Assembly: GCA_016186045.1 (NCBI GenBank)
Contig: JACPMJ010000008.1
Location: 1 to 37,408, forward strand
Source: Candidatus Uhrbacteria bacterium
GTDB lineage: Bacteria > Patescibacteriota > Patescibacteriia > JACQRZ01
Length of the DNA: 37,408 nucleotides
Reading direction: 5' to 3'
Shown here: in pieces, positions 18,349 to 37,036 of the stretch
Position numbering within the stretch: position 1 is the first letter of the stretch
How the letters are laid out: each line of letters begins with the position of its first letter
Notes under the pieces: generated by a model
Databases searched by the model: none
Seen by the model: only the letters and a program-made list of their open reading frames with translations
What the model was told of the DNA's origin: nothing
Translations under genes and position numbers: made by a program

Positions 18349-18381
18349 AAAAAAATAGATTAAAGGTGAAAGAATTTTTCC

Positions 18382-18410
18382 AAAAAAACAAGGAAGTATT
18401 CACTTCCTTG
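18382..18410 (-). terminator. Intrinsic terminator between pilB and pilT-like
   Basis: On the minus strand, a perfect 9-bp stem CAAGGAAGT (18402-18410) / ACTTCCTTG (18389-18397) has a 4-base loop and is followed by seven T residues (18382-18388). Confidence 0.9.
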
Positions 18411-18439
18411 AGTATAACTTACCTATGGGATAGAATCAA
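18411..18439 (-). promoter_or_regulatory. Promoter-like sequence abutting the terminator, upstream of pilT-like
   Basis: On the minus strand, TTGATT (18434-18439) and TATACT (18411-18416) are separated by 17 bases. The -10 box touches the terminator stem, so a transcript from it would begin inside that hairpin. Confidence 0.5.
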
Positions 18440-18459
18440 GTACGTTTCATCACTATGTA

Positions 18460-20187
18460 CTACTCCCGTGTCACGCGTAAAACCTCCTCAAGAGATGTTA
18501 GCCCCTGCAAGGCCTTTACGATCGCATCCTGCTTCAGAGTCATATTCCCTTGTTTTTTCATCTCCTTCGCAAGATCGTCAATGGAATATTTTCCTGTGAG
18601 CGCATTCTGGACGCTTTCTGTCATTTGAAACGCTTCCGCAACCACAGACCTGCCTTTGTATCCTGTTCCTCCGCAGTTATCACATCCTTCTGATCGATAG
18701 AATACCAGCTTCTTCCCTGCGGCAACAAATTTTTCTATCACTGTCGGATCTGGCAAATGATCCAGCTCCTGGGATACTTCTTTTTCCAACCCCTGAGGAA
18801 TGGTTACCGTCTTTTTGCATTTTTGGCATAAGAGCCGCACCAACCGCTGAGAGATAAGCGTATTCACTGCCGCTGAAATGAGAAATGGCTCAACATGCAT
18901 ATCAGTCAAGCGCGGGATCACGCCCATCACGTCTTTTGCGTGAATGGTTGAAAGCATAAAATGTCCGGTCAATGCCGCATGAATAGCTAATTCCGCAGTT
19001 TCATTATCGCGAATTTCACCTACCATTACCACATTGGGATCTTGACGCAAGACAGCGCGCAGTCCGGACGCAAATGTCAATCCAACGTCAGGATTGATCT
19101 GCACTTGGTTGATTCCGGGAATATAATACTCAACCGGGTCTTCAAGCGTGATAATATTGACCGTCTCCTTATTTAACGCACCGACAATGGAAGAGAGTGT
19201 GGTAGATTTACCGGATCCAGTCGGTCCACTAACGAGTACCACTCCGGTGGGACGCGCGATAATGCCCTTTAAGATATCAAGGGTCTTGCCAATAAATCCC
19301 AACTGTTCCAATGTAATGGTCTTTGTTTCAGTGGGAAGAATACGCATCACCACTTTTTCATTCCCGGAAACCGGCAGTGTTGATACGCGCAAGTTGATAT
19401 CTCGTCCGTCAATGGTGACCTTGATGCGGCCATCCTGCGGAATGCGTGTTTCGTCCATTTTCAAATTCGCAAGCACCTTAATACGCGCAATAAGAGATGA
19501 GTGGAGATGAAATGGCAAGGTTAGATACACATGCAGAATGCCGTCAATGCGGTAGCGAATACGTGTTTCCCGCACTCCCGGCTCCATGTGGATATCTGAT
19601 GCCCCCGCATTCACTGCTTCTGAAATAATCAAAGAGACAATCCGCGCAACCGGCGCTTTTCGAATGATTTCAATGAGTTTTCCCTTGCGCTCTCCACGTG
19701 ACTCCTCCAGACGCTGGGCCTCCAAGGATTCGATAGCTTCTCCGATTTCTTTCCGAAATGGTGAGTAATTCTTTACGGCATTTTGGAATCCTAACTGCGT
19801 TGTGACGTGGAGGTGCAAGGTAAATCCTTCTTCTTTCGCCCAAAAATTAATCGCCTCTATCGCGCGATAATCATTCGGATGCACCAACGCCACACTCACA
19901 TCGTTTCCTTTCTTTTCAAACACAACCAGCTGATAATTTTCCGCAACGGTCTGTGGTATGACTATGAGAATGTCATAGGGAACTTCCGTGCGCTCCAAAT
20001 CAACAAACGGCAAACCATAGAGCTCGCCCTGCACTTTGACCAATTCTTTTTCAGAAATAAGGTTTTTGTCCCGCAGATATTCGTCCGGATCCACAGAATG
20101 TCGCGTTGCTTCTGCAAGAACATGCTTCGCTTCTTCTTCCTTGAGAAGCCCTTTTGTAATCAATGCCTTGATGAGCTTGCTTTGCAT
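18460..20187 (-). CDS. pilB: Type IV pilus assembly ATPase PilB (GspE family)
   Basis: 575 aa, typical. Residues 1-150 form the MshEN/GspE N-terminal domain. The motor domain has all catalytic motifs intact: Walker A GPTGSGKST (321-329), Asp box ITLEDPVEY, Walker B VMVGEIRD (387-394) and His box STIHAKD. The tetracysteine zinc site (C454, C457, C502, C505) is complete. PilB hydrolyses ATP at the inner membrane to extend pili, working with PilC, PilM, PilN and PilO. It lies 1 base after the 97-aa membrane protein gene and is the last gene before the terminator. Its intact motifs contrast with the neighbouring PilT-like protein. Confidence 0.96.
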   Translation of the reverse strand: MQSKLIKALITKGLLKEEEAKHVLAEATRHSVDPDEYLRDKNLISEKELVKVQGELYGLPFVDLERTEVPYDILIVIPQTVAENYQLVVFEKKGNDVSVALVHPNDYRAIEAINFWAKEEGFTLHLHVTTQLGFQNAVKNYSPFRKEIGEAIESLEAQRLEESRGERKGKLIEIIRKAPVARIVSLIISEAVNAGASDIHMEPGVRETRIRYRIDGILHVYLTLPFHLHSSLIARIKVLANLKMDETRIPQDGRIKVTIDGRDINLRVSTLPVSGNEKVVMRILPTETKTITLEQLGFIGKTLDILKGIIARPTGVVLVSGPTGSGKSTTLSSIVGALNKETVNIITLEDPVEYYIPGINQVQINPDVGLTFASGLRAVLRQDPNVVMVGEIRDNETAELAIHAALTGHFMLSTIHAKDVMGVIPRLTDMHVEPFLISAAVNTLISQRLVRLLCQKCKKTVTIPQGLEKEVSQELDHLPDPTVIEKFVAAGKKLVFYRSEGCDNCGGTGYKGRSVVAEAFQMTESVQNALTGKYSIDDLAKEMKKQGNMTLKQDAIVKALQGLTSLEEVLRVTRE

Positions 20188-20188
20188 A

Positions 20189-20482
20189 TTATTTTTTCTT
20201 TGTCACGAACGGCTCTTTATTTCCAATTTTATCCACAGTCATCTGCGTTGGCATCTGTTCTTTCAATGAAAGAAAAAACGGATCTTCATAGACGGTTTTT
20301 TCCCAATCAATTTTCTTGATGGGAAGTTTTTTCTTTTCTACGACAATTGAAACAGGCGCCGAGGACTTGGGTCCGTATATCTGATAAAAATAATACCCCG
20401 CGTACCCGGCGAGAAGCACGAATATCACACCAAGCGCGGCGCTATTTGTCCGTTTCTTTTTTTGTAATGGTTGTGGGGACAT
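20189..20482 (-). CDS. 97-aa single-span membrane protein between PilO-like and PilB
   Basis: A short basic N-terminus (SPQPLQKKKR) is followed by one membrane helix (about residues 14-34) and an extracytoplasmic-looking tail that ends in a KKK run. The frame is open further upstream within the pilO-like gene, but the ATG at 20480-20482 gives a sensible membrane protein; it overlaps the end of the pilO-like gene by 41 bases. No PilP lipobox is present. Its place between PilO-like and PilB suggests an accessory role in the pilus platform, like PilP in position but not in recognisable sequence. Confidence 0.7.
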   Translation of the reverse strand: MSPQPLQKKKRTNSAALGVIFVLLAGYAGYYFYQIYGPKSSAPVSIVVEKKKLPIKKIDWEKTVYEDPFFLSLKEQMPTQMTVDKIGNKEPFVTKKK

Positions 20483-21068
20483 AGTCTTCTTGATAATACG
20501 TCTTAATAACGAAGCTTGCGCTGCCGCTTGCAGGATCTGCGTCAATAGACTGAACATCAAGGATCCTGCGATTCGTCTCAAATATATTAAGGAGTGTCTT
20601 GAGTTTTTTATAATCAACTTTGGTGAATTTTGCAGCTATCACAAGTTCTTTGAGCGATCCTTTTTCCTTTTCTTTTTTCTTATCTTCAACGCCTTTTGGG
20701 GGGGTGATACTGACGACCTCAAGGCCCAAGCCAAGATCGGCGGCAATTTTTTCAAATCCTGCGAAAAATCCGGGGGATTCAGGATATTTCGGCACCGTGC
20801 CTGCGAGCACGTCAGCGCCTCCTGTTCGCTTTTGGTACAATGAATAAAAATTTCCAAGCTCTTTGAGATATTTCTGCTGTTCAGCAAGCTTTACCTGTTC
20901 CGTAGTGACATGAAATTCGCCGCCGGGCAAATATTTTTGAAGCTCTATCTGTATGAATGACACATACATATACCACAGCACGCCCGCAATGATACCTATA
21001 ACAAGAACGGGCTCTATCTTATCCAATATGAATGAGAATCTAATTTTTCTTTTCTCAATCTGCGGCAT
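20442..21068 (-). CDS. PilO-like pilus alignment protein
   Basis: 208 aa from the ATG at 21066-21068; a TTG at 21095 would add 9 residues but overlaps pilN-like more. The layout is that of PilO: a short basic cytoplasmic N-terminus (EKRKIRF), one membrane helix (roughly 18-39), a coiled stretch, and a small periplasmic ferredoxin-like domain. The assignment rests on this architecture and on position after PilM- and PilN-like genes; sequence conservation of PilO is low. PilO pairs with PilN to link the PilM ring and the platform. The gene overlaps the pilN-like stop by 14 bases, suggesting translational coupling. Confidence 0.75.
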   Translation of the reverse strand: MPQIEKRKIRFSFILDKIEPVLVIGIIAGVLWYMYVSFIQIELQKYLPGGEFHVTTEQVKLAEQQKYLKELGNFYSLYQKRTGGADVLAGTVPKYPESPGFFAGFEKIAADLGLGLEVVSITPPKGVEDKKKEKEKGSLKELVIAAKFTKVDYKKLKTLLNIFETNRRILDVQSIDADPASGSASFVIKTYYQEDYVPTTITKKETDK

Positions 21069-21726
21069 ATGTTTTTGTAATGACAGCGGGATCAATCTCC
21101 AATCGAACGGAAAAATTCACGCCTGTACTCACGCCTGTTGGCGAAAGCACGGCATTTGCAGACGTAATCTCCACATTAGTAACAAACGACGATGCATCCT
21201 GAAACGCGATGAGCTGTTTTGCGACAGATGCATAATCCGTGGTATGTGCGGAAAGCGACGTAACGTAGTTTGTGGAAATGGAAATGGAATCATACGCCAC
21301 GTTTGGGAGTGTATGTTTCTCAAGCTCTTCAAAAAATTGCGTCCAATACAAATGATTCTTGAAAAGATTGTTAAAAGCGGTCAGCTTCGTCTGATATGCC
21401 AAAAGCGCTGTCTTGTTTTTCTCTATGGACATAATCTGCTCCTCAACCGCCGCGCGCGCAATCCGAACATCTTGTATGGCTTCGCGCGCCTTACCCCCAT
21501 ACAGATATACAGCGCCCCATGCCGCAGATCCCAAAATCACGCTTATCGCAAAAGAGACTATCAATTGCGTGATGTCTTTACGTTCAATGCGCTGAAACAT
21601 CCGATCCAACGTGTCCTGGGTAATAAGATTCAACCCAACTTTATCTACAGATGCTCTCTTTCCCTTCCCCTGTTTTTCTTTTTCGTCCTTGGACGATTGA
21701 GCTCCAAGAAAATTCGGGCCTGGCAT
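21055..21726 (-). CDS. PilN-like pilus assembly protein
   Basis: 223 aa. A cytoplasmic N-terminus of about 55 residues contains VGLNLI, resembling the conserved INLLP-type peptide through which PilN binds PilM. One membrane helix follows (about 57-77), then a coiled coil (about 85-115) and a ferredoxin-like periplasmic domain. The gene is placed canonically between pilM and pilO-like. The extra charged residues (KDEKEKQGKGKR) ahead of the PilM-binding peptide are longer than in typical PilN. Confidence 0.8.
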   Translation of the reverse strand: MPGPNFLGAQSSKDEKEKQGKGKRASVDKVGLNLITQDTLDRMFQRIERKDITQLIVSFAISVILGSAAWGAVYLYGGKAREAIQDVRIARAAVEEQIMSIEKNKTALLAYQTKLTAFNNLFKNHLYWTQFFEELEKHTLPNVAYDSISISTNYVTSLSAHTTDYASVAKQLIAFQDASSFVTNVEITSANAVLSPTGVSTGVNFSVRLEIDPAVITKTYAAD

Positions 21727-21746
21727 ATGTGCTTTTTATAGAATTT

Positions 21747-22865
21747 TTACTCTTTTTCCTCACGCAAGGCAAGTCCCGCAGCAACTGAAAATTTCGGCCC
21801 AATGCTTGTAAGGATCGGGCGCAAATCTTCCGGATATGCGATGCGCGCCCACGGATCACCAAGATATGCTCGTATGTCTAATTCTTTTGAAAAATATTCC
21901 GCAATATGTGGTAGAAGCGCCGCACCGCCGGTAAGGATAATTTTTTCAATAGTGCCGGTGGTAAAACCTGATGGCGTAATTTGATGATTTTTATAGAGAT
22001 CCAGGGTATATCTGATCTCATGTATAATCGGCTCAAGCGCAGATTTCAGAATATCCGGAATGCCGCCACCCTCTGCGCCGACCGTGAGGATACCCACATC
22101 CCGTTTCACCTGTTCAGCGCGCTTTTCATTGATATTCAAACTTGCCATAATGGCATGCGTCATAGCGTCCCCTCCCACCTCAATGCTTCTGCCGATAAAT
22201 GGAATGCCATTTTCCACCACGATGATATCTGTGAGAGACGAGCCGATCTCCACGATCATGATCTCTCCTATTTCCGTACCTACCAATGACCGTGCAAGCG
22301 CAAACATCTCTGTTTCTAAGCTCGTCAAGGTAAGCCCGCTTTCCTGAAAAATCTCCGAATACCGCTCAACTGTTTCCCGCGCCGCGCCGGTAATAAGCAC
22401 TTTCATCTCCTTTTTCTTTTTCTCATGCTCCTCTTTTTTCCCTAACGACAGGGAAAATCCTTTTTTTTCTGGCTGATTTAATATGCGGTAATCCAAAATA
22501 ATATCTTCCAATGGCAAGGGAATGATTTTTTTCGCCTCCCAATGTATCGCGGCGTCCAGCTCATTTTGCGCTACCGGTGGAAAACTCACCAACGAGACAA
22601 AGACCGAGTACGTTGGAAGCGCCGCAGTTGCCGTGGCTGTGGTGAATTTCGTCTTTTCCCGCAATGCTTTGATATATCCGCCAAGCCGCGTAGCCTCTTC
22701 TTTTCGGGTCTTTCCTTTTGGATCTCGATGAATGTTTTCGGCAAACGCGTAATTTACCAAAGTATGTGTTCCATCTTTATTTTTCGCAAGCTCAACCAAT
22801 TTAATGCTTGACGTTCCAATATCAACACCAAGAATGCTGTTTTCTTTTTTCTGAAACAGGGGCAT
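21747..22865 (-). CDS. pilM: Type IV pilus assembly protein PilM (actin-like ATPase)
   Basis: 372 aa, normal. The actin/FtsA-like phosphate-1 motif is GVDIGTSSIKLVEL (about 14-27). Further nucleotide-site strands occur at IMIVEIGSSLTDIIVVENG and the adenosine-motif ILTGGAALLPH. A charged insertion (KKEEHEKKKKEM, about 150) is unusual. PilM forms a cytoplasmic ring bound to the PilN N-terminus and PilB. It begins the pilM-N-O block; the ATG at 22863-22865 lacks a Shine-Dalgarno sequence. Confidence 0.95.
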   Translation of the reverse strand: MPLFQKKENSILGVDIGTSSIKLVELAKNKDGTHTLVNYAFAENIHRDPKGKTRKEEATRLGGYIKALREKTKFTTATATAALPTYSVFVSLVSFPPVAQNELDAAIHWEAKKIIPLPLEDIILDYRILNQPEKKGFSLSLGKKEEHEKKKKEMKVLITGAARETVERYSEIFQESGLTLTSLETEMFALARSLVGTEIGEIMIVEIGSSLTDIIVVENGIPFIGRSIEVGGDAMTHAIMASLNINEKRAEQVKRDVGILTVGAEGGGIPDILKSALEPIIHEIRYTLDLYKNHQITPSGFTTGTIEKIILTGGAALLPHIAEYFSKELDIRAYLGDPWARIAYPEDLRPILTSIGPKFSVAAGLALREEKE

Positions 22866-25418: not shown

Positions 25419-25447
25419 TTGACGATTCGCTATCTCTATTATATACT
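25419..25447 (+). promoter_or_regulatory. Promoter of the clpC-like gene
   Basis: TTGACG (25419-25424) and TATACT (25442-25447) are separated by 17 bases. The ATG at 25482 follows 34 bases later. A TATAAT on the opposite strand (25438-25443) overlaps and may serve the divergent 816-aa gene, although it lacks a good -35 box. Confidence 0.8.
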
Positions 25448-25481
25448 ATCCTTAGTGAAACTCCTACATTATTTTCCTCAT

Positions 25482-26252
25482 ATGGAAGATACCGCAAAAA
25501 ATTTTACTCACAATCTCCTACGCGTACTGGCACAAGCCGCCCAGCTTGCAACTGCGGAAGGGAAAAACAGGATTGAACCAATCCACCTTTTTTACGGACT
25601 CACAGACCAGGCAGAGCCGTTTTTAACAAACCATTCCTTCAAAAAAAAGCACGCACGCATTCCACAGGCGCATATGCCGCTGATAACACTTTCCCTGTCC
25701 GCAAAAAAAATCATCCTTGACGCGGCAGACATTGCCCATAGTTATAATCAATCCTACGTTGGCACCGAACATCTTCTCGCAAGCCTTTTGGAACACCAAA
25801 ATCACGAACTTCAAAAAATGATCAGTAGGATGAACATCAACCCAAAAGAGATGCGCCAAAGCCTTGCGACGCGACTCAAAACTTCCGCGCATATTGTAGA
25901 CATTTTAGAATCCCTCTTTCCGCCACAGGATCTCCCTACGGACGCGCCACCGCACACTCATGAGGAGCCGAGTGCCGCTCAGCCGACACCACGCCAAAAA
26001 AAAATTTCCGCACTTGAGTACTTTGGCTGCAATATCACGAACCACACGCATGCGCAAAACCTGGATCCGTGCATTGGCCGCGAAATAGAGATGAATCGCC
26101 TCGTCAGAATCTTATGCCGTCGCACCAAAACAATCCGGTGCTTGTTGGCGCTCCGGGAGTGGGAAAAACCGCCATTGTTGAGGGACTCGCAAAAAAAATC
26201 TCCAGCGGAGATGTGCCGTCGGTGCCCCGCGGAAAAAAAATCTATTCCTTAA
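25482..26252 (+). CDS. clpC: ClpC-like ATPase, N-terminal fragment (frameshifted gene)
   Basis: The 5' part of a ClpA/B/C-type unfoldase. Residues 1-140 form the double Clp N-domain ([13 protein letters not shown] is the second repeat). A linker follows, then the start of AAA1 ([19 protein letters not shown]). After that Lys the frame departs from the family and ends at 26252. The family sequence continues with [14 protein letters not shown] in another frame. Inserting one A in the A-run at 26127-26130 restores a single 809-codon frame, the normal ClpC length. Start chosen at ATG 25482 because the frame upstream lies inside the promoter. This is a recent mutation or a sequencing/assembly error. 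Confidence 0.85.
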
Positions 26253-27910
26253 GTCTCACATCACTTACCGCAGGCAGTGCATTTCGTGGAGAACTGGAGA
26301 TGCGCTTCAAGCAAATTCTTGAGGAGGTAAAAGCTGACCCGTCTGTTATTATTTTCATTGATGAAATTCATAATCTTGTGGGCGCTGGTTCGTCAAACGG
26401 ATCTTTGGACGCGGGCAATATCCTGAAGCCGGCGCTTGCGCGCGGAGAATTGCGCTGTATTGGCGCAACCACGTTTGCGGAATACAAAAAATTCATTGAA
26501 GATGATCCCGCATTGGAGCGCAGATTCCAGATGATCGCGGTACGGCCGTCTTCCTGTGAAGAATCCGAGTCCATTATCCTCGGCCTTCGGCCATACTATG
26601 AGGCGTACCACCGAGTAAAAATTACACCCGAGGCGGTGTCTGCGGCAGTTCACCTGAGCGACCGGTATATCACGGAAAAATGCCTTCCGGACAAGGCGAT
26701 AGACCTCATTGACGAAGCCGCGGCAAAAATGAAGGTGGAAACAGGCTGTTTAGAAACAAAACAGCAGAAATCCGGCAATGGATGGGAACACTCTCTTGCG
26801 GCATACACCGAACGGCAATCGCCTCAAAACCATGCATATTCGTCTCCTCTTTTTGAATCCCCATTTTTCAAAGAACACAAAGCTCCATACATAGGAACAC
26901 TTGTGGAATCCCATATCATCCAAATCGTCTCTGAAATAACCGGCATCCCCAGCACACGCCTGGCATATGGCGAACGCGAGAAGCTCCGCGTGCTTGAGAC
27001 GACACTTTCAGAAAAAATCGTCGGACAAGAGCATGTGAAAAAAACCGTGGCAAATTTCATCCGACGCGCGCGAAGCGGACTCACAAAAAAAGGCAGGCCA
27101 TTGGCGTCATTTGCATTCCTGGGTCCGAGTGGCGTAGGAAAAACAGAGCTTGCGAAAACGCTTGCGCAGGAAATTTTTGGTCCTGATGGCATGATAAAAT
27201 TGGATATGTCTGAATTTTCCGAAAGCTTTACCATCTCACGGCTCATTGGCGCGCCCAGCGGATACATTGGATACAAAGAGGGCGGCAAACTGACTGAGAG
27301 CGTGCGTCAACGGCCATATTCACTCATACTTTTTGACGAGATAGAAAAAGCGCACCCAAAGATCCTCCAGCTCCTGCTCCAGATTCTTGAGGATGGGACC
27401 CTCACGGATGCCGCGGGAAAAAAGGTTGATTTTTCAAACACGATCATTGTACTTACCTCAAATATCGGATCGAATAAGCTTATCTCCGGTAATACACTAG
27501 GATTTTCAGAGACAGAACAAGTATCTTCCCATGCGCAGGAAACCATTCTCAAGGAACTTAAGGAGTTCATGAACCCGGAACTTTTGAACAGGATTGACGC
27601 GTCATGTATCTTTCATTCGCTCACGGATCGAGATATTCGCGCGATCACAGACCTCCAACTTTCCGAGCTGAAAGAAAAAATGCAGAGTCAGCACATCACG
27701 CTTCGCATTACTAAACGAGCAATATGCTTTATTGCCACGCGATCATACCACCCCACGGCGGGCGCGCGCCATATCCGGCACACCATTGAACAGCTCATAG
27801 AGCACGCTCTTGCCGATACTCTTCTCTCATCTGAAAAAAAACCGTATACTATATGTGTGGATATGAAAAAGAATGCGATCGTCTGCACAAGCTCCCATAT
27901 TCCATGCTAA
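26114..27910 (+). CDS. clpC: ClpC-like ATPase, C-terminal fragment (frameshifted gene)
   Basis: The 3' part of the split gene; homology begins at NNPVLVG, near 26131. AAA1 has Walker A GAPGVGKT, Walker [10 protein letters not shown] and the arginine-finger region ERRFQ. The middle-domain position holds a Ser/Pro/His-rich stretch of about 60 residues instead of the coiled coil expected in ClpC. AAA2 has Walker A GPSGVGKT, Walker [18 protein letters not shown] and the sensor-2 GARHIRH. The protein would unfold substrates for ClpP or act as a disaggregase; clpP is not in the window. The first codons from ATG 26114 overlap the upstream fragment in another frame. The gene ends 9 bases before the next gene. 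Confidence 0.85.
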
Positions 27911-27919
27911 CCCTTTTAT

Positions 27920-28291
27920 ATGGGGAATCCAATCGGGAATAAAATGAAATCAGGGATGGTTTCAGTAAGTCTTAGCGCCTTAGGAGGTGCGCTTATGTCT
28001 TTTAATCCTCTCTTAATCATCACGGTAGGTACATCTTTTGTTTTTCTGCTCTGGGTAAATTTCATCGGCTGGAATCTTCTTCCTATGTTGCGGCCACTTT
28101 TAGTAGAACCAGGGAATGAGCTTGTGTTTTTTTCCAGTGAATTCCGCGGACTCCTTCACATATTCGCGCTTATATTCTTTACTTTTATCTACCTTCTTGA
28201 GATCATGTTTTTTATCGCAGTCATCATTTTTATCATTAACACTATCCAGGGACTACTTCCACCGCCCCTTGATTCACTTTTCAAATTTTAA
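27920..28291 (+). CDS. Small membrane protein, 123 aa
   Basis: I do not recognise this family. There are three hydrophobic segments (about 18-37, 38-58 and 77-108, the last perhaps two helices). The N-terminus MGNPIGNKMKSG is basic; there is no cleavable signal peptide. It lies 9 bases after the clpC-like gene and 19 bases before the propeller gene, so it is probably co-transcribed with both. Its closeness to the VirB2-like array makes a role in the same envelope complex possible, but nothing in the sequence proves it. Confidence 0.65.
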   Translation: MGNPIGNKMKSGMVSVSLSALGGALMSFNPLLIITVGTSFVFLLWVNFIGWNLLPMLRPLLVEPGNELVFFSSEFRGLLHIFALIFFTFIYLLEIMFFIAVIIFIINTIQGLLPPPLDSLFKF

Positions 28292-28310
28292 ACTATTTCT
28301 CAAAAAAATT

Positions 28311-29615
28311 ATGAAAAATTTTGACTGGAAACGCATCGCGCTTATCATCGGATTTATTTTTCTTGTGTTTCTTTTTGCGTTTCTTCTCTATCGGTTCTTT
28401 TTTGCTCCTTCTCCTCCACCACCACCTCCACCACCATCGCCAAAAGAGCTCCCGATACCAACCGGACTCAAGACCGGAAAAGAACGCATTGTGCCTCCCG
28501 GTATAAAAAAACCGCCAAAACCACCGCCCGGGCCAAATGAACCAATTATCACTCCCATTGGAGAGCCGTCTCCGACTTTTATATCAGAAAAAAAGCCAGT
28601 GCAGGAAATGGCTCGAGATCCGCTCAATAATCCTCTTCCGGTCAAGCAAGTCCAGGAGGACCGCAATATCAATCCTCAGATCGCGCCTGACGGCAAAGGA
28701 GTGCAAACGTTTGACAGCTATACCGGAGAATTTCTCCATATCAAACCGGACGGAACTTCGGAAAAACTGACAGACAAAATATTCGTAGGGGCGGAAAAGG
28801 TGACATGGTCTCCGCAAGGAGACAAAGCGGTCATGAAATTCATTGATCTTTCCACGGTACTGTATGACTTTGAAAAGAAAAAACAGTATGTGCTTCCGGA
28901 ACACTGGAACGAGTTCAAATTCTCTCCGGATGGGGAAAAAATTGCGTTCAAAAGCGTTCCAAAAGCTCCTGAAAATCGCTGGATCGTCACCACCAACCCG
29001 GATGGAAGCGGACCCCAGCTCATTGCGCCCATGAGTGACAGAAACGGAACATTTGAAATCTCGTGGTCACCATCTGACCAAATCGTCGCATACTATCGCG
29101 TGGGAGAAGACGCAAGTCGGCAAAAAATCTATTTTGTGGGAAAAAATGACGAAAATTTCAAGTCTATGATTGTCAACGGCCGTGACATCGTAAGTCAATG
29201 GTCTCCAAACGGCGATCGACTGCTGTACAGCGGATATACCATGGATTCAGGTCTCAAGCCTGACCTTTGGATCGTGGATGCGCTTGGAGACTCCATCGGA
29301 GGAAATCAACGATTCTTGGGTGTGCAGACATGGGCTGATAAATGCACGTTTGCGAGCAACACCATCCTCTATTGCGCGGTTCCAAAAGAACTTGTCCGCG
29401 GAGCAGGCGTTCTCCGCACCGTTGGCGATGCCGGAGAAGATGATATTTACAAAATCAATACGTTCAGCGGATACAAGGAGCTTATCGCGACATTTGACAC
29501 CAAACATACCATAAGCAAACTTATGCTTTCAGACGACCAGTCCATCCTCTACTTTACGGAAAAAGATTCCGGTACTATTTTCCAAGTTCAGCTTTATCAG
29601 CGTCCGCAGTCATAA
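28311..29615 (+). CDS. Membrane-anchored TolB/WD40-like beta-propeller protein
   Basis: 434 aa from the ATG at 28311. A short cytoplasmic N-terminus leads into one membrane helix (about 9-28). A proline-rich linker follows (about 33-90, including eight consecutive Pro). From about 110 to the end, repeated PD40/TolB-type blades occur: INPQIAPDGKG, VTWSPQGDKAVM, FKFSPDGEKIAF, ISWSPSDQIVAY, SQWSPNGDRLLYSG, LMLSDDQSILYF. The propeller should face outward and bind a partner or ligand rather than catalyse. A frame extends upstream over the preceding gene, but the ATG just before the membrane helix is the sensible start. An intrinsic terminator follows. Confidence 0.85.
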   Translation: MKNFDWKRIALIIGFIFLVFLFAFLLYRFFFAPSPPPPPPPPSPKELPIPTGLKTGKERIVPPGIKKPPKPPPGPNEPIITPIGEPSPTFISEKKPVQEMARDPLNNPLPVKQVQEDRNINPQIAPDGKGVQTFDSYTGEFLHIKPDGTSEKLTDKIFVGAEKVTWSPQGDKAVMKFIDLSTVLYDFEKKKQYVLPEHWNEFKFSPDGEKIAFKSVPKAPENRWIVTTNPDGSGPQLIAPMSDRNGTFEISWSPSDQIVAYYRVGEDASRQKIYFVGKNDENFKSMIVNGRDIVSQWSPNGDRLLYSGYTMDSGLKPDLWIVDALGDSIGGNQRFLGVQTWADKCTFASNTILYCAVPKELVRGAGVLRTVGDAGEDDIYKINTFSGYKELIATFDTKHTISKLMLSDDQSILYFTEKDSGTIFQVQLYQRPQS

Positions 29616-29707: not shown

Positions 29708-30241
29708 ATGAAAAAAATCACGTTGCATTCTTTTTTTGCACTCTGGATATGCGCTCTTTTTTTTATTTCCGCGACAGGAGCAGGCGCGCAAGGAGACATC
29801 CGGTCAAGCAGCCAGATCCCGGATCTCAAACTACAAATACCCATTGACAAGATCATCGGCGCCGGCAATACCCAGCTCCAATCCAGCGCCACTACGCCAC
29901 ATCCAAACGCGCGCCTTCCAGTGGGCAAACTCTCACAAATCGCAGGAAATGAACTCGCACAAGGAGGCGGACTGGGTACGTATGTTTCTGTACTTTCTCA
30001 ATGGCTTGTGGGCGCCATTTCACTGCTCGCGGTGATCTTTCTCATGGCTGGCGGCATTGTCTGGCTGACTGCGGCTGGAAATTCGCAACAAGTAAATTTC
30101 GCAAAAAAACTTATCACAGATACTCTCGTGGCGCTTCTCATTACTTTGTCAATATACATTATTCTTTCAACAATCAGTAAAAATCTTGTGGAGTTGCGGC
30201 TTCTCGCACCAGGAGGAATATCCACTGTGCAGAAAAAATAA
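29708..30241 (+). CDS. VirB2/TrbC-like two-helix protein, array member 1
   Basis: 177 aa. It has a signal peptide (1-27, cleavage likely after AGA), the LQIPID motif (42-47), and a spacer of about 50 residues longer than in the other members. The hairpin follows: helix 1 about 99-122 (WLVGAISLLAVIFLMAGGIVWLTA), a basic loop with FAKKLITD, and helix 2 about 138-157. The tail is short and ends STVQKK, as in member 2. Size and topology match VirB2/TrbC pilins (two helices, both ends outside after cleavage), which polymerise into conjugative pili. Whether this one polymerises is unknown. It is the first of five tandem homologues. Confidence 0.85.
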   Translation: MKKITLHSFFALWICALFFISATGAGAQGDIRSSSQIPDLKLQIPIDKIIGAGNTQLQSSATTPHPNARLPVGKLSQIAGNELAQGGGLGTYVSVLSQWLVGAISLLAVIFLMAGGIVWLTAAGNSQQVNFAKKLITDTLVALLITLSIYIILSTISKNLVELRLLAPGGISTVQKK

Positions 30242-30255
30242 TTTTCTTAAAAACC

Positions 30256-30693
30256 ATGGCACATAAAAATAAAAAAGGTACATATACTATTCCTGTTCTT
30301 TTTTTCGCGATCTGTTTTTTATTTTTTCTTCATACATCTTATGCGCTTGCCCAAGTAAAACTCCAAATACCGGTAGATAAGCTTGCGGAAGTCTCACAGG
30401 CGGAAATGAATCAAGGCAAAGGCATCATAGTATACTTAGTGGCAATCTATACATGGCTTGTGGGAGTCATCTCTCTACTCGCGGTGATCTTTCTCATGGT
30501 TGGCGGACTTATCTGGCTCACGGCGCGAGGATCACAAAAACAACTGGGGTTTGCAAAAAAACTTATTTTGGATTCGCTTTGGGGTCTTGGGATTGCTTTG
30601 GGATCTTTTTTGTTTCTTTCCGCTATTAATCCAAATCTTGTAAAATTTGGTGACATTACATTGGAGAAAACATCTACCGTACAGAAAAAATAA
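30256..30693 (+). CDS. VirB2/TrbC-like two-helix protein, array member 2
   Basis: 145 aa, the most pilin-like member. It has a signal peptide (1-32, ending ALA), then VKLQIPVDK and a short spacer. Helix 1 (about 66-90) contains WLVGVISLLAVIFLMVGGLIWLTA, the basic loop is RGSQKQLGFAKKLILD, and helix 2 (about 105-123) is followed by INPNLVKF. The tail ends STVQKK. Fifty-five bases in the loop region are nearly identical to member 3, which points to a recent duplication or gene conversion. It lies 14 bases after member 1. It could be the structural subunit that the longer, hydrolase-bearing members join. Confidence 0.87.
   Translation: MAHKNKKGTYTIPVLFFAICFLFFLHTSYALAQVKLQIPVDKLAEVSQAEMNQGKGIIVYLVAIYTWLVGVISLLAVIFLMVGGLIWLTARGSQKQLGFAKKLILDSLWGLGIALGSFLFLSAINPNLVKFGDITLEKTSTVQKK
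30512..30566 (+). repeat. 55-bp direct repeat, copy 1 (in array member 2)
   Basis: 54 of 55 bases match the copy at 30971-31025. The repeat encodes WLTARGSQKQLGFAKKL, the end of helix 1 and the cytoplasmic loop. Confidence 0.9.
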
Positions 30694-30711
30694 TCTTACT
30701 CCTTACCTATC

Positions 30712-31749
30712 ATGCGTTCCATAAGAAACATACTCCTTCTTGCCTGTATTCCCTTCATGATTGTTTGGGGGATATTATTCATGCCGCTCATTCCCACTTT
30801 TGCCCAAGAGGTGCGGCTTCAGATTCCCATTCCGGGATTGAATGCTTCAATAAAGGCGTGCGAAGGCGCGCTGTGCTTTGGCGTTGCGCAATATATTGTC
30901 GCAATCGCGAAGTGGCTCGTGGGCGTCATTTCATTGCTCGCAGTGATTTTTATTATGGTTGGCGGTATCGTCTGGCTCACGGCGCGAGGATCGCAAAAAC
31001 AACTGGGGTTTGCAAAAAAACTTATCAAAGATTCTTTCGTAGGACTTGGGATTGCCATAGGATCATATTTTATACTCTTCATGATAAATCCGAATCTGGT
31101 GAACTTTGCGGGGTTTGGTGTGGAGAAGATTGAAGGAATTGATTTTCAGCTTCCAGAGGCAAATCCCACAGATATTCAAGATGGTGGAGATAGTAATGAA
31201 AAAGCTAAAATACCTACAAACTTATCCTCAAACAGCATTTATTGCCCAAAATCAGGAGGCGCTAAAGAATTTGAAAAAATTATCAAAAGTTTTAAAGGCA
31301 AGGTAGCGTATCGATTCGGCGGAAAAGGTGGCTCTCCACCATATAAAGAAACAAATCCTGATTATATGAAGTATAATACTTACTGTCCTCCTGGTAATGA
31401 ATGTTTTGATTGCTCTGGATTTGTAAATATTGTTTTTTTATGTGCCGGACTTCAGTCACCTGGTGGAGGTACAGACGATATTTTTTCAGGTACTGAAAAA
31501 ATTATTTCTTGGGACGTCGCAAAACAAACGATCAATGACAAAGAACTTAAACCTGGCGATCTTATCGGTTATCTAAAAAGTGAAACAACGCATCCGGCCG
31601 GTCATGTACTTTTATATGCTGGGGGTGGTCTTTTTATCCAAACAACAAGCTCAGGTGGGCATCCAGGTCGCCAACCAGGCGCAAATCCAAAACAGAGTTC
31701 GATGTCTCATGTGCCCATGAAAGATTACAAACACATAAAGCGCTTATGA
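30712..31749 (+). CDS. VirB2/TrbC-like hairpin fused to an NlpC/P60 endopeptidase, array member 3
   Basis: 345 aa. It has a signal peptide (1-31, ending TFA), VRLQIPI (35-41), a Cys pair (C50, C55), helix 1 (about 68-91), a basic loop, helix 2 (about 108-124) and INPNLVNF. A polar linker (about 140-195) leads to an NlpC/P60 domain: AYRFGGKG (199-206), catalytic Cys234 in DCSGF, and His298 in GHVLLYAGGG. Such enzymes cleave D-Glu-gamma-diaminoacyl bonds in peptidoglycan stems. By the positive-inside rule, the loop is cytoplasmic and the enzyme faces outward. The stop overlaps the next start (ATGA at 31746-31749), so the two are translationally coupled. Confidence 0.9.
   Translation: MRSIRNILLLACIPFMIVWGILFMPLIPTFAQEVRLQIPIPGLNASIKACEGALCFGVAQYIVAIAKWLVGVISLLAVIFIMVGGIVWLTARGSQKQLGFAKKLIKDSFVGLGIAIGSYFILFMINPNLVNFAGFGVEKIEGIDFQLPEANPTDIQDGGDSNEKAKIPTNLSSNSIYCPKSGGAKEFEKIIKSFKGKVAYRFGGKGGSPPYKETNPDYMKYNTYCPPGNECFDCSGFVNIVFLCAGLQSPGGGTDDIFSGTEKIISWDVAKQTINDKELKPGDLIGYLKSETTHPAGHVLLYAGGGLFIQTTSSGGHPGRQPGANPKQSSMSHVPMKDYKHIKRL
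30971..31025 (+). repeat. 55-bp direct repeat, copy 2 (in array member 3)
   Basis: Differs from the copy at 30512-30566 by a single A/G substitution, which is silent (both codons Ser). Confidence 0.9.
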
Positions 31750-32705
31750 AAAAATCTTTCAACAGGAAAATACTTGTCTTCTCTTTCTTCGTCATCCTCC
31801 TTGGTGTATTTGCCGTATTTCAATCTGCTCTTGCGCAAGATGTCACACTTCAAATTCCCCTATTAGGCATCAGTAAAATATCAGGTATTGGAGAATACGT
31901 TATTACTATCGCCAAATGGATTGTGGGAACATTGTCTTTACTCGCAGTGATTTTCATCATGGTCGGCGGACTTATCTGGCTCACGGCGCAAGGATCACGC
32001 AAACATGTTGAATTTGCAAAAAAACTTGTCACTGACTCCCTCTGGGGTCTCATACTCGCGCTCGGATCATACATGCTCCTCGCGGCTATCAGTCCATCAC
32101 TCGTGAATTTTGAAAAAATACATCTTGAGGAAATTACAAATATTGATTTTACTGTCAATCAACAAAAATTCTCAGAAGAATTTGAAAAATTAAATATCCC
32201 TCCCGGTCAAAAAACAAAAAGGGTTTGTAGCAATATCATGCGAAGCAGTCACCTTGCTACATACAAAAAAATAGGCGCGGAGCTTAATTTTCCGTGGGAA
32301 ATCCTTGCCGCGACTCATTATCGCGAATGTAATTTGGAAAATTTTATGGGATCCGAATGTGGAAATAATCAAATGCAATTTTGGAAAAGTACAAAATTCG
32401 GAACTGGATGTCTCCAATCATTTGAGGAAAACCTTCGATGCGCAATCACCAAACAAATCAGGGGTGAGCAGGGAATGAAAAATATTGTTACAGATACTAC
32501 AGACTCCAATCTTATCGGACGAATGTTCGTAAGATATAATGGAAGCAAGACATACGCCTATAACGACCCTGACCATGGTGAGACCGGTACGATAGGCGGA
32601 TGGATAGAACGTCCGGATGGTTCAAAATACAAAATGAAACAAACCACAGATTCGCGCCCCGGAGCGCTTCCCGTTTTTCTTGCGTTAAAAAATAATTGTC
32701 AATAA
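31746..32705 (+). CDS. VirB2/TrbC-like hairpin fused to a lysozyme/transglycosylase-like domain, array member 4
   Basis: 319 aa. It has a signal peptide (1-30, ending ALA), VTLQIPL, helix 1 (about 58-81), loop QGSRKHVEFAKKLVTD, helix 2 (about 99-115) and ISPSLVNF. The C-terminal domain (about 160-319) begins with CSNIMRSSHLATYKKIGAELNFPWEILAATHYRECN. FPWEILAATHYRE is the glutamate-containing helix of lysozyme-like muramidases/transglycosylases, with Glu194 as candidate acid, and FVRYNGS..AYNDP fits the later part of that fold. Seven Cys in this domain suggest disulfides and an oxidising outer location. The expected bond is MurNAc-GlcNAc. The exact family is less certain than for members 3 and 5. 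Confidence 0.82.
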   Translation: MKKSFNRKILVFSFFVILLGVFAVFQSALAQDVTLQIPLLGISKISGIGEYVITIAKWIVGTLSLLAVIFIMVGGLIWLTAQGSRKHVEFAKKLVTDSLWGLILALGSYMLLAAISPSLVNFEKIHLEEITNIDFTVNQQKFSEEFEKLNIPPGQKTKRVCSNIMRSSHLATYKKIGAELNFPWEILAATHYRECNLENFMGSECGNNQMQFWKSTKFGTGCLQSFEENLRCAITKQIRGEQGMKNIVTDTTDSNLIGRMFVRYNGSKTYAYNDPDHGETGTIGGWIERPDGSKYKMKQTTDSRPGALPVFLALKNNCQ

Positions 32706-32714
32706 ACCCGACGT

Positions 32715-33653
32715 ATGAACGGATTCAGAAAATTTTTTTCCACTTTCTTAGTTGCAAGTATTTTTTATGTTTTTCTTATCTCCTCTCTTCCTGTTTTCGC
32801 CCAATCCGTGACACTGCAAATCCCTATTGGAGAGACGAAGAGCGTCACCGTCTGTTCTGGCGGACTCTGTCACGGCATCGCGCTCTATATCGTGGAATTT
32901 GCAAAATGGCTTGTGGGCACAATTTCGCTTGCCGCGGTCATTGCCATCATGTTCGGCGGCATTGTCTTGCTTACCTCGCGGGCAAATCAAAACCAGCTCG
33001 CATTTGCAAAAAAACTTATCAGTGATTCGCTGATTGGGCTGGGAATTACGATCGGATCATATCTCCTCCTTTCGGTTATCAGTCCGGATTTGATTAATTT
33101 CAAAAATTTAGCACTCGATACAATACAAACCATCGGTTTTGAACTGGATGTAACAGCTGAACAATATGCGGTACCTTCTGGTACTTCTGCCGGAAAAGTG
33201 AATCTTGGCGCGGCAAATTCCGGAGATCTTGTGAAATATGTGCCTCATACCAATCTTAGCACACGAGCGACAGGTCAACTGCGGCAATCTACTGCCGAAG
33301 TTCTTCGTAAGGCAGCAGATATTTGCGCAAAAAAAGGAAAAAAAATTATCGTAGGAAGCGATTTTCGAAGTTTTGACGGTCAAGTCGCGGCATATAAAAG
33401 ATATTTAGCCGGGGGGAATCTCGCATGCAACCCGGGAACCGACCCAAAGCATGTGAGATGTCCGCACACGTCAGGCCAAGCTGTTGACCTTGATACTTCC
33501 GCTCACTGTCAAGGCAGAAAACCAGATCCTGTCACCGCTCAATGTATGAAAGAAGCAGGCTTTGACTGTGTTCTTATGAATGGCGGAGAATGTTGGCATT
33601 ATGAATACCCATCACTTTCGGGAGCATGTGTTGACCCTGCAAAATATTTTTGA
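32715..33653 (+). CDS. VirB2/TrbC-like hairpin fused to an M15 (VanY-like) peptidase, array member 5
   Basis: 312 aa. It has a signal peptide (1-29, ending VFA), VTLQIPIG, a Cys pair (C47, C52) matching member 3, helix 1 (about 66-88), loop RANQNQLAFAKKLISD, helix 2 (about 107-122) and ISPDLINF. A linker leads to an M15-type zinc peptidase: SDFRS (215-219, equivalent of SGYRS), HTSGQAVDLD with H251 and D258, and CWHYEY with H295. These are the three zinc ligands of VanY/DacY-type D,D- or L,D-carboxypeptidases acting on peptidoglycan stems. This hairpin is the most diverged of the five. The stop is 6 bases before radA. Confidence 0.9.
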   Translation: MNGFRKFFSTFLVASIFYVFLISSLPVFAQSVTLQIPIGETKSVTVCSGGLCHGIALYIVEFAKWLVGTISLAAVIAIMFGGIVLLTSRANQNQLAFAKKLISDSLIGLGITIGSYLLLSVISPDLINFKNLALDTIQTIGFELDVTAEQYAVPSGTSAGKVNLGAANSGDLVKYVPHTNLSTRATGQLRQSTAEVLRKAADICAKKGKKIIVGSDFRSFDGQVAAYKRYLAGGNLACNPGTDPKHVRCPHTSGQAVDLDTSAHCQGRKPDPVTAQCMKEAGFDCVLMNGGECWHYEYPSLSGACVDPAKYF

Positions 33654-33659
33654 TTGAAT

Positions 33660-35015
33660 ATGCATAAATCATCAATCATCTTTGAGTGCACCTCCTGCGG
33701 CGGCCAAAGCCCAAAATGGTCCGGCCGGTGTCTTCTGTGTGGCGCGTGGGGTACGCTGGAAAAAACTCTCGAGGCGGCTGTCGCAAAAAAAGAACGTGAA
33801 AAGAATACTCCCTCCGCGCATGCGCTTCCTTTTTCACACATCGGATCGCAGGATTTTCCGTCCGTACAGACCGGCATGACGGAAGTGGATCAAGTGCTTG
33901 GCGGAGGTATCGTCCCGGGAAGTCTTTTGCTTATCGGCGGAGAACCGGGTATAGGAAAGTCGACCCTACTCGGACAGATAGCTCTTTCAATAACTACATA
34001 TACAAAAAAGAACGTTCTCTACTGCTCGGGCGAGGAGTCCGGACATCAGGTTAAGCGCCGATTAGAGCGGCTCGCCACGGCACACTCCCCCATACCGGAC
34101 GCCCTCCTCTTTGCGTCTGAAACAGACGTGGACAAAATCTGCGCGACTATCCGGGAGAAAAAACCATTTCTCGCTATTGTGGATTCTATCCAAACCATTC
34201 ATACATCGGATGTTCCGTCCGAGGCGGGCGCGGTCGCGCAAGTGCGCGCGTGTACCGTAAAACTTCTCGAGACGGCAAAAACCACAAACACCGCCATCAT
34301 TATTGTAGGACATGTGACGAAAGAAGGCATGGTTGCCGGACCAAAGACGCTCGAACATCTTGTGGATACCGTCCTCTATCTTGAGGGCGATCAAAGCCAG
34401 TGTTACCGGCTCTTGAAGACCGTAAAAAATCGTTTTGGTTCCACGAATGAGATCGGTGTTTTCGAAATGACCGGCATGGGACTCGAAGAAGTTTCAAATC
34501 CCTCTGCGGCATTCCTCTCAAAAGAATCCTCACGCATGCCCGGCACCGCGGCAACTGCCGTTCTGGAAGGGTCTCGCGCTTTTCTCGCGGAGGTACAGGC
34601 GCTTACCACTAAGACATATTTTGGGTATCCCCAGCGCCGTACCACAGGTTTTGATGTAAATCGCCTCCAGCTCCTTATTGCGGTCCTCACAAAACGGCTC
34701 GGTGTAAACCTTGGAGATCAGGATATCCATCTCAATATCGTAGGAGGATTCAAAATATCCGAACCGGCAATTGATCTTGCGGTGTGTGCGAGTATTCTTT
34801 CCGCGTATAAAAATAAATCGCTTGAAAGTGGCACATTATTCATAGGAGAGGTGGGACTTACGGGAGAGATTCGCCCCGTGGCACAAATCGAAAAACGACT
34901 CAAAGAGGCGGAAAAACTCGGATTCACGAGCGCGTATATCCCAAAAACAGATAAAAAAATTGAGTCAAAGCTTAAACTTTATCCACTGAAACATTTGCAA
35001 GAGATGGAGATATAA
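33660..35015 (+). CDS. radA: DNA repair protein RadA (Sms)
   Basis: 451 aa from ATG 33660, normal length; a TTG two codons earlier abuts the previous stop and is less likely. The N-terminal zinc finger has C10, C13, C24 and C27. The RecA-like motor has Walker A GEPGIGKST (about 94-102) and the RadA-specific KNRFG motif. The C-terminal Lon-like domain has the GEVGLTGEIRPV block. RadA drives branch migration during homologous recombination in the cytoplasm. It lies directly after the VirB2-like array without its own clear promoter, so it may share that transcript. Confidence 0.97.
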   Translation: MHKSSIIFECTSCGGQSPKWSGRCLLCGAWGTLEKTLEAAVAKKEREKNTPSAHALPFSHIGSQDFPSVQTGMTEVDQVLGGGIVPGSLLLIGGEPGIGKSTLLGQIALSITTYTKKNVLYCSGEESGHQVKRRLERLATAHSPIPDALLFASETDVDKICATIREKKPFLAIVDSIQTIHTSDVPSEAGAVAQVRACTVKLLETAKTTNTAIIIVGHVTKEGMVAGPKTLEHLVDTVLYLEGDQSQCYRLLKTVKNRFGSTNEIGVFEMTGMGLEEVSNPSAAFLSKESSRMPGTAATAVLEGSRAFLAEVQALTTKTYFGYPQRRTTGFDVNRLQLLIAVLTKRLGVNLGDQDIHLNIVGGFKISEPAIDLAVCASILSAYKNKSLESGTLFIGEVGLTGEIRPVAQIEKRLKEAEKLGFTSAYIPKTDKKIESKLKLYPLKHLQEMEI

Positions 35016-35055: not shown

Positions 35056-35985
35056 TTACTCCAAATGCACCTCCCTTTCAAACGACTGAATACGTTTTTG
35101 AATCTCCGGATATTTTTCTATTTGTTCGATCACTACGCTCGCCCATTCGCGGGCTTTTTTTATCATCGCAATATCACTGACATCCGCAATTTTCAATTCA
35201 ATCATGCCTGACTGCTGTTTCCCAAATACCTCCCCGGGGCCTCGTAGTTCCAAATCTTTTTCCGCGAGTTCAAATCCGTTTGCGCATGACACGAGCGCCT
35301 TGAGCCGTTGTTCATCTTCCTGCTCTTCCGACGTGGGAAGTAAAAAACAATATGACTGATGTTGTGATCTTCCTACGCGGCCGCGGAACTGGTGCAACTG
35401 CGCCAATCCAAACCGCTCTGCGCCTTCAATGGCCATCACGGTCGCATGAGGAATATCCACTCCTACCTCCACCACGGATGTTGCCACAAGGATATCCGCT
35501 TCTCCAGAAAGCATCGCGCGCATGACTTCTTGTTTTTTCTCCACATTCATTTTCCCATGTAGCATATACAGTCTGCGACTGGGGAATATGTCTTTTGAAA
35601 GATGTTCGTATTCTTTCGTTACGGACCTCACTCCCAAGGCATCAGACTGGTCTATGGTAGGACAGATAATAATCGCCTGATGCCCTTTTTTGATTTCTTT
35701 TTCAATGAAATCATATGTCCACTGCCGATAGCGCACGGGAACTATTTTTGTGACGATTTCTTTCCGCCCTTTTGGAAGTTCATCCAATAGGGAGATGTCC
35801 AGATCCCCATAGAGCGTCAACGCAAGCGAACGCGGGATCGGCGTGGCAGTCAGGGAAAGTAGATGTGGCATGACGGCGACAACACCGCTTTTTTCCCGAA
35901 GCGTTTTTCTCTGCGCCACGCCAAAGCGATGCTGTTCATCAATGATGACAAGCCCAAGACAACGGAAAAAAATCTTCTCCTCCAA
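35056..35985 (-). CDS. recG: RecG helicase, C-terminal fragment (broken gene)
   Basis: 309 codons from a TTG. It begins at the end of helicase motif Ib/II, with family-like LEEKIFFRCLGLVIIDEQHRFGVAQRK (DEQH = motif II). Motifs III-VI follow: SLTATPIPRSLALTLYGDLD, VVEVGVDIPHATVMAIEGAERFGLAQLHQFRGRVGR and the TRG-type C-terminal region. The upstream fragment ends its homology about 26 residues before this one resumes, so the gene has lost a piece. The frame extends a little upstream in THA-L, fitting the IVIGTHAL block of RecG. The TTG is probably not a natural start; the fragment alone would lack Walker A. Confidence 0.85.
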   Translation of the reverse strand: MEEKIFFRCLGLVIIDEQHRFGVAQRKTLREKSGVVAVMPHLLSLTATPIPRSLALTLYGDLDISLLDELPKGRKEIVTKIVPVRYRQWTYDFIEKEIKKGHQAIIICPTIDQSDALGVRSVTKEYEHLSKDIFPSRRLYMLHGKMNVEKKQEVMRAMLSGEADILVATSVVEVGVDIPHATVMAIEGAERFGLAQLHQFRGRVGRSQHQSYCFLLPTSEEQEDEQRLKALVSCANGFELAEKDLELRGPGEVFGKQQSGMIELKIADVSDIAMIKKAREWASVVIEQIEKYPEIQKRIQSFEREVHLE

Positions 35986-37036
35986 AAGCGCGTGCGTGTA
36001 TCAAGACGACAGATATTCCCTGCGGCTCCAGATAGGTGAAAAGCGTCTGGAAATGCTGGCGCGCCAGAATTTCCGTGGGCGCCATATACGCCACTTGGCA
36101 TCCGGCTTTGACCGCATTCAATATCGCAATTGCCGCAACCGCTGTTTTGCCGGATCCCACATCCCCTTCCAAAAGCCTGTTCATGGGCGTGCTTTTTTGG
36201 CAATCTTTCAAAATTTCCCACGCGGACCTGCGCTGTGCCTCTGTGATCTGAAACGGCAGCCCCGCCACGAAATCCTTTGTTTCTTTTTCAAAAAAATGCA
36301 GAGGAAGAGCGCGAATGCTCTGAAGGGATCTCCGCATCTGTAAAGCATACAGCTGAAGAAAAAAAAGTTCCTCAAATTGAAACCGTTTTTTTGCAGACTC
36401 CCATTCCTCCTGAGAGTCCGGAAAATGAATGTTCATGAGCGCGCGACGAATATCCTTGAATGCTTCACGCACCATCATCTCCTGTGGAAGCCATTCAGTT
36501 ATACTCGGCATGCATGCATCAAGCCCTGATTTTATGAGCGTGCGAAACTGCTTTTGCGTTATTTTTTCCGTCAACGAATATACCGGCACAAGCCGGGCGG
36601 TATGCACACTCTCACGGCCTGCATGCACCTTTTCATACTGCGGGCTGACAAGCTGGAGATCAAAAAGATAGCTGTGTATCTTTCCGGAAAGGCTGACCAT
36701 ATCCCCAACCGCAAGATTTTTTGTGAGAAACGGCTGGTTGAACCAAACCACTTTTACTGTACCGCTTGCGTCTGATATAAGTGCTTCGGTCAGCATCTTT
36801 CTCTGCCGCGGAGAACGACGGTTTGCGATAAGCGTAATTTTCCCCTGTATTGTCGCGGACATCCCCGGTTGCAGGGCACTGATGGGGATAATCGCGGAAA
36901 AATCGTCAAAACGATAGGGGAAATAAAAAATAAGATCCCACCACGTCCGGATCCCGAGCAGTATAAGCTGTTTTTCACATTTCGTACCAATGCCGCAGAG
37001 CGCGCGCACTGGAGTATCAAGCTGTATCATAGGCAT
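35939..37036 (-). CDS. recG: RecG helicase, N-terminal fragment (broken gene)
   Basis: 365 codons. RecG remodels stalled replication forks and branched DNA. Present are the N-terminal helix-hairpin segment (VRALCGIGTKCEKQLILLGIRTWWDLIFYFPYRFDD), the wedge OB-fold (about 50-150), and helicase domain 1 with the Q-like LPFQITEAQRRS, Walker A EGDVGSGKTAVA and motif Ia APTEILARQHF. After GISVVLI the frame runs into unrelated sequence and stops at 35939. About 26 residues (the LTG...DIVIG segment) are missing compared with family members. The missing length must be 2 modulo 3 bases, so this is a deletion of about 77-80 bases, not a single-base error. An AGAGG lies 5 bases before the ATG. Confidence 0.88.
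   Translation of the reverse strand: MPMIQLDTPVRALCGIGTKCEKQLILLGIRTWWDLIFYFPYRFDDFSAIIPISALQPGMSATIQGKITLIANRRSPRQRKMLTEALISDASGTVKVVWFNQPFLTKNLAVGDMVSLSGKIHSYLFDLQLVSPQYEKVHAGRESVHTARLVPVYSLTEKITQKQFRTLIKSGLDACMPSITEWLPQEMMVREAFKDIRRALMNIHFPDSQEEWESAKKRFQFEELFFLQLYALQMRRSLQSIRALPLHFFEKETKDFVAGLPFQITEAQRRSAWEILKDCQKSTPMNRLLEGDVGSGKTAVAAIAILNAVKAGCQVAYMAPTEILARQHFQTLFTYLEPQGISVVLIHARAFGGEDFFPLSWACHH

Follow-up and report, generated by a model that had tools for sequence, protein, structure and literature searches.

Tandem type IV secretion pilin-like hairpins in a Patescibacteria genome of class ABY1, three of them extended by known or candidate wall-active domains

The window analysed here is a stretch of 37,408 nucleotides, contig C6 of a Candidatus Uhrbacteria genome (928 kb, 92% complete) assigned, from the names of relatives and from the comF, recG and radA neighbourhood published for ABY1, to class ABY1 of the Patescibacteria, whose many members are tiny and mostly depend on a host. 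Five co-directional open reading frames, all on the + strand, occupy positions 29708-33653. Members 1 to 3 are spaced by 14 and 18 nt, members 3 and 4 overlap by 4 nt, and 9 nt separate members 4 and 5. The array is preceded by a beta-propeller gene, which adjoins it in relatives too, and followed by radA:

28167..29615, + strand: membrane-anchored TolB-like beta-propeller, directly upstream of the array (TIGR02800, 5.2e-6)
29708..30241, + strand: member 1, signal peptide and hairpin without a C-terminal module (PF18895 T4SS_pilin at 21.4 bits against a cut-off of 26.6)
30256..30693, + strand: member 2, signal peptide and hairpin without a C-terminal module (PF18895, 18.4 bits)
30712..31749, + strand: member 3, hairpin and NlpC/P60 (PF00877, 1.2e-10; PF18895, 20.8 bits)
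31306..31656, + strand: NlpC/P60 domain of member 3, with C234 and H298 as predicted catalytic residues
31746..32705, + strand: member 4, hairpin and a domain with an invariant HYxE motif (E194)
32154..32702, + strand: C-terminal domain of member 4, assigned to no fold by searches
32715..33653, + strand: member 5, hairpin and VanY/M15 peptidase (PF02557, 1e-3; motif residues invariant in 7 relatives)
33276..33599, + strand: VanY/M15 domain of member 5, with H251, D258, E292 and H295
33660..35015, + strand: radA, directly downstream of the array and in relatives a synteny marker toward recG, comF and virB4

Elsewhere in the window, clpC (25419-26252 and 26069-27910) and recG (35056-35985 and 35939-37036) each appear as two overlapping open reading frames in different frames. 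These splits look like single-base indels, whether true frameshifts or errors of assembly. At 17275-22865, at least about 7 kb upstream of the array, the window has genes of a type IV pilus, for PilM and for ATPases of the PilB and PilT types.

All five members have a signal peptide (called from sequence alone), an LQIP motif and a two-helix hairpin. These common features agree with the original prediction, which also named a WLVG helix and a FAKKL loop. An alignment of the five hairpins spans their full length; in it, identity to member 3 is 41-52% and 32 columns, including LQIP, WxVG and FAKKL, are invariant. Because this likeness spans the full length of five adjacent genes, chance similarity is of no concern. 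Members 1 and 2, with 10 and 2 residues beyond the hairpin, have the pilin trait of being small proteins without a further domain; members 3, 4 and 5, which continue for 199, 183 and 169 residues, do not. The source genome also contains hairpins outside the window, where the first reading could not have seen them. Contig C30 carries a further tandem cluster (L009, 982-6050) of about ten plain T4SS_pilin genes, one of which encodes two hairpins. This second pilin type in the genome is followed by small HicB-like and helix-turn-helix genes and, further on, by Cys-rich proteins. One hairpin with a Cys-rich extension is found on contig C23.

The C-terminal module of member 3 matches NlpC/P60 above the Pfam cut-off, as had been predicted, and its C234 and H298 are conserved in relatives. 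The M15 peptidase proposed for member 5 is recognised by VanY below the cut-off, and the residues of its zinc-site motifs (HxxxxxxD and ExxH) are invariant in the 7 relatives compared. The residue numbers given for members 3, 4 and 5 were all correct, and E194 of member 4 is also conserved in relatives, within the invariant HYxE motif. By contrast, the lysozyme-like nature ascribed to member 4 is suggested by the HYxE motif only, as no identification was obtained from Pfam, from a PDB profile search or from AlphaFold on the single sequence (mean pLDDT 45, uninformative). Profile comparison with SLT aligns the E194 region with the SLT Glu region at a level that is not significant (P 0.12), and calling this module a lysozyme is a guess. 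The domain was found in four genera of one family only, the source and three others, always on a hairpin, and none was found in viral contigs. Thus, of the “complete wall-cutting set” originally proposed, the NlpC/P60 and VanY/M15 parts are present, whereas the set as a whole is unproven because member 4 is not established as a lysozyme. In the source assembly, member 3 is the sole NlpC/P60 match and member 5 the sole VanY match, and profile search found no SLT match. A phage origin of the NlpC module was considered and is not claimed, as the PHROGs tail-lysin match comes only through the shared domain.

Among 58 ABY1 hairpins, PF18895 (T4SS_pilin) matches 54 at E<=0.01 (best 9.9e-12), PF04956 (TrbC/VirB2) matches 3 at the same threshold, and NF045849, the Mbov_0395 family of pilin-like conjugal transfer proteins, matches 41. 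Members 1-3 of the window match PF18895 below the Pfam cut-off. Pfam recognises no hairpin in members 4 and 5, which are placed with the T4SS_pilin hairpins by their alignment with members 1-3. Profile matches therefore place the hairpin in the T4SS_pilin family, in agreement with the VirB2/TrbC-type relation first suggested. Hydropathy and charge over the 58 sequences indicate two hydrophobic helices joined by a short loop, in which one position is K or R in 86%, with no hydrophobic segment after the second helix. In the AlphaFold model of member 3, the helices span residues 58-90 and 95-125, mostly with pLDDT above 90, and block means of pLDDT are 83-96 except at the first and last residues. 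The positive-inside rule, applied to the basic loop, places both ends of the hairpin outside. The predicted topology thus supports a cytoplasmic loop, extracellular N and C ends and an outward-facing ectodomain and, with the conserved catalytic residues, is consistent with the C-terminal hydrolases being displayed outside, as originally envisaged. A Foldseek search of the full-length member 3 model against PDB gave no significant match (best pilus hit 8dfu, TMt 0.63, E 3.8), and the hairpin profile found only spurious matches to designed Pizza proteins among PDB profiles.

The hairpin extends far beyond the source genome, with similar hairpins in 143 of 144 ABY1 genomes and in 368 of 380 genomes of the phylum. 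Each outcome that the first reading named as refuting it was checked, and none was observed. Contigs with class-typical hairpins come mostly from Candidatus Uhrbacteria, Falkowbacteria, Magasanikbacteria, Kerfeldbacteria and Komeilibacteria, with a few from Moranbacteria, Azambacteria and Nomurabacteria, names that we take to be members of class ABY1. The fusion partners found C-terminally in the loci examined include varied hydrolases, Cys-rich domains, PKD and dockerin. Among 94 ABY1 C-tails of at least about 90 residues, Pfam recognised SLT (10), amidase_2 (6), C39-like (5), VanY (5), M15 (4), NlpC/P60 (3), 3D (3), M15_4 (2), M23 (2), GDSL (2) and phage lysozyme (1), where some proteins match more than one domain and the proportions are biased because the loci were chosen by hairpin similarity to the source array. 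Many of the remaining tails are Cys-rich. The C39-like modules are candidate wall enzymes. The set of enzymes carried on hairpins differs between genera of a single family. At 20 loci outside ABY1, the 26 tails taken contain, among others, SLT (3), C39-like (3), PKD (3) and dockerin (1).

Some further observations concern these fusions. The idea that SLT is exclusive to hairpins in ABY1 was rejected by comparing coordinates, since most SLT domains lie elsewhere and at least 14 of 64 are on hairpin proteins. Outside ABY1, the hairpin is fused to PKD-rich adhesin-like tails or is C-terminal on proteins of at least about 1000 residues (L216:288-8398; L215:4546-8295). At L048:4924-12824, two fused-hairpin genes recur as a perfect copy in inverted orientation, which is probably a palindrome created by the assembly.

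A VirB4-like ATPase was detected with PF19044 in 131 of 144 ABY1 genomes; PF03135, also tried, has no match in the source genome, and PF19044 is the right model. The link to virB4 and virB6, named at the outset as something to check, was found as conserved synteny, the order in the family being clpC, propeller, hairpin array, radA, recG, comF and virB4, and then virB4N, prgI, a gene for a 1020-aa protein and one for a VirB6-like polytopic protein. In the source genome, a contig break interrupts this order, which runs to the right end of C6 and resumes at the left end of C2. Pfam confirms PrgI and VirB4, while the term “VirB6-like” reflects position and hydrophobicity alone. The array lies 9-19 kb from virB4 in the family, in a separate operon; elsewhere in ABY1, families often have a hairpin protein no more than 3 kb from virB4, those examined being mostly of the Cys-rich type. 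On 15 of the 16 large contigs with both genes, virB4 and a hairpin are at most 20 kb apart, with a naive p of 8e-7 that is optimistic because the contigs were selected for carrying the two together. Twelve of the 13 PF19044-negative ABY1 genomes, most of them fragmented, also have no match to the source VirB4, yet they keep hairpins, several of them long. In the single-contig genome among these (G138), a plain array is kept and there are no strong matches of the fused type, a single case in line with fused hairpins going together with VirB4.

Near virB4, a hairpin protein with a Cys-rich ectodomain recurs in several ABY1 families and looks like a conserved separate paralogue. At some loci, VirB4 itself is of about double length, with two homologous blocks and an insert between them, which in G006 carries intein splicing and LAGLIDADG domains:

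L049:6912-7988: Cys-rich hairpin near virB4
L054:6819-7709: Cys-rich hairpin near virB4
L057:5385-6755: Cys-rich hairpin near virB4
L058:7453-8673: Cys-rich hairpin near virB4
L063:6056-7261: Cys-rich hairpin near virB4
L086:8688-9956: Cys-rich hairpin near virB4
L067:12819-16694: double-length VirB4 (G006)
L083:3452-7306: double-length VirB4 (G008)
L082:49-3732: double-length VirB4 (G001)

In a nearest-neighbour test with 71 hairpins and 48 C-terminal modules from 28 genomes or loci, the nearest hairpin was in the same genome for 57 of 71 (1.4 expected by chance), whereas the nearest module was in another genome for 42 of 48, a discordance of 30:0 (p 2e-9). Within-genome homogenisation of the hairpins and swapping of the modules follow from this pattern. 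In the hairpin tree of the family, the five hairpins of the source genome group together as a clade (100/98), most other genomes show the same for their own hairpins, and genome labels change 10 times on this tree while module labels change 19 times. When hairpins with the same module were forced into a clade, the constraint was rejected for five of six classes (member-4-type, VanY, C39, NlpC and M15-type; p 0.015 to below 1e-50) and was not rejected for the amidase_2 hairpins (p 0.42). Additionally, DNA identity in some pairs is 86-100% in the hairpin core and 45-60% beyond it, a drop that is as expected from gene conversion. Judged from these sequence comparisons, hairpins homogenised within a genome while their enzymes are swapped would fit co-assembly with interchangeable cargo. 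We infer that the hairpin is one shared slot with exchangeable cargo, presumably in a polymer or complex.

VirB2-like pilin arrays are already known in the Patescibacteria. The available parts of two studies (Quinonero-Coronel 2025, PMC12102498; Wang 2023, PMC10633639) describe tandem PF18895 genes, 2-11 per array, with divergent copies and near a type IV secretion system (T4SS), and mention ABY1 T4SS loci with comF, recG and radA. The arrays have been published, as have their variability and the requirement for them in epibiotic growth (PMC12102498, PMC10633639, PMC12857230). The source array resembles them as tandem PF18895 genes near a T4SS, but C-terminal hydrolase modules are not mentioned in those parts. 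Conjugative T4SSs also encode peptidoglycan hydrolases, namely VirB1, PrgK and TraG (TrsG). However, these are separate proteins (of the SLT plus CHAP type in monoderms), whereas in the array the enzyme, which varies in type, forms the C-terminal part of a pilin-like hairpin protein. The array accordingly lacks the VirB1-type trait of a separate soluble or anchored SLT(+CHAP) protein, its enzymes being fused to the hairpin in an assembly with no SLT. The Mbov_0395 family (NF045849), from a monoderm conjugative element, is likewise a pilin-like hairpin, but its model has 80 residues and no ectodomain, and the window members score below its cut-off. In the searchable literature, which leaves aside subscription papers, preprints and supplementary tables, no report of hydrolase fusions to pilin hairpins was found. 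Pilin arrays in the Patescibacteria are thus known, while the fusions appear to be new. In a published survey, pilin arrays were detected but wall enzymes of the VirB1 kind were few, for which hydrolase-bearing hairpins offer another reading in ABY1.

Our leading explanation, to which we give slightly better than even chances, is that the five proteins are VirB2/TrbC-like T4SS pilin subunits, which serve the T4SS and three of which bear, at their extracellular C-terminus, an enzyme that is wall-active or a candidate for such activity. The subunits would be exported by Sec and adopt a hairpin in the cytoplasmic membrane, with the basic loop in the cytoplasm and both ends outside. Their near-uniform hairpins would bring them together with the VirB4/PrgI/VirB6-like machine encoded nearby, and the swappable ectodomains would cut or prepare peptidoglycan where this machine meets the wall, taking the role of the separate VirB1 hydrolase of other systems. 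The array may indeed replace a VirB1-type enzyme, since the assembly has its sole NlpC/P60 and VanY matches on the array and no SLT. The predicted hairpin fold, family membership, conserved catalytic residues, linkage and module swapping are the established parts of this explanation; from here we infer co-assembly, use by the T4SS, catalytic activity and the target wall.

As for the target, turnover of modules between related genera implies varied targets and so favours host walls, whereas the general role of VirB1 favours the bacterium's own wall; the data fit both and do not decide. The turnover of enzyme sets between genera suggests that varied host walls are at least part of the target. 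A sub-case of the leading explanation, a real possibility although short of probable, drops the own-wall target altogether, so that pilus or surface subunits cut host peptidoglycan with modules that track the host wall. The strong module turnover on a constant stalk speaks for it, as does the finding that cultivated Saccharibacteria are epibionts and depend on T4SS pilins to grow on their host (PMC10633639), but the domain list is equally compatible with own-wall use. Tentatively, and with somewhat more doubt, one may picture a surface scaffold or type IV pilus of composite make-up, its VirB2-like hairpins homogenised and its peptidoglycan hydrolases exchangeable and specific to each genome. 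Just as speculatively, this would be a principle of VirB1-VirB2 fusion by which an epibiont opens the wall of its host at the contact site.

Two other explanations dispense with a secretion pilin. The hydrolases could serve growth and division of the cell's own wall without any T4SS, on hairpins that are plain anchors and resemble one another through neutral gene conversion. Two-helix anchors are indeed common, gene conversion among tandem copies is expected and can be neutral, hairpins are kept in genomes without detectable virB4, and the lack of any other NlpC/P60, VanY or SLT match in the assembly would allow these to be the housekeeping enzymes. We nevertheless think this rather unlikely, as the hairpin matches the T4SS_pilin family and is syntenic with the T4SS, the enzyme set varies between genera of one family, unlike that of housekeeping wall enzymes, and PKD and dockerin domains are found on the same hairpin outside ABY1. 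That the hairpin is a Patescibacteria-specific anchor, pilin-like by hydrophobicity alone and not a VirB2 relative, would agree with the sub-threshold or missing Pfam hairpin matches of the window members and with the structure search. It is highly improbable, however, given the relatives that match PF18895, TrbC/VirB2 and the conjugal pilin-like family.

Cultivated Saccharibacteria need a T4SS for growth on their hosts, in a role that is so far unexplained. Wall enzymes on pilin-like subunits, as in the leading explanation, would answer this directly, and in a form open to testing, for ABY1 and, as far as a small sample shows, also for other classes. The fusions may explain how a T4SS can cross walls with no stand-alone hydrolase of the usual kind. 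Additionally, the pattern of homogenised hairpins and swapped modules provides an evolutionary test for co-assembly that does not depend on culture.
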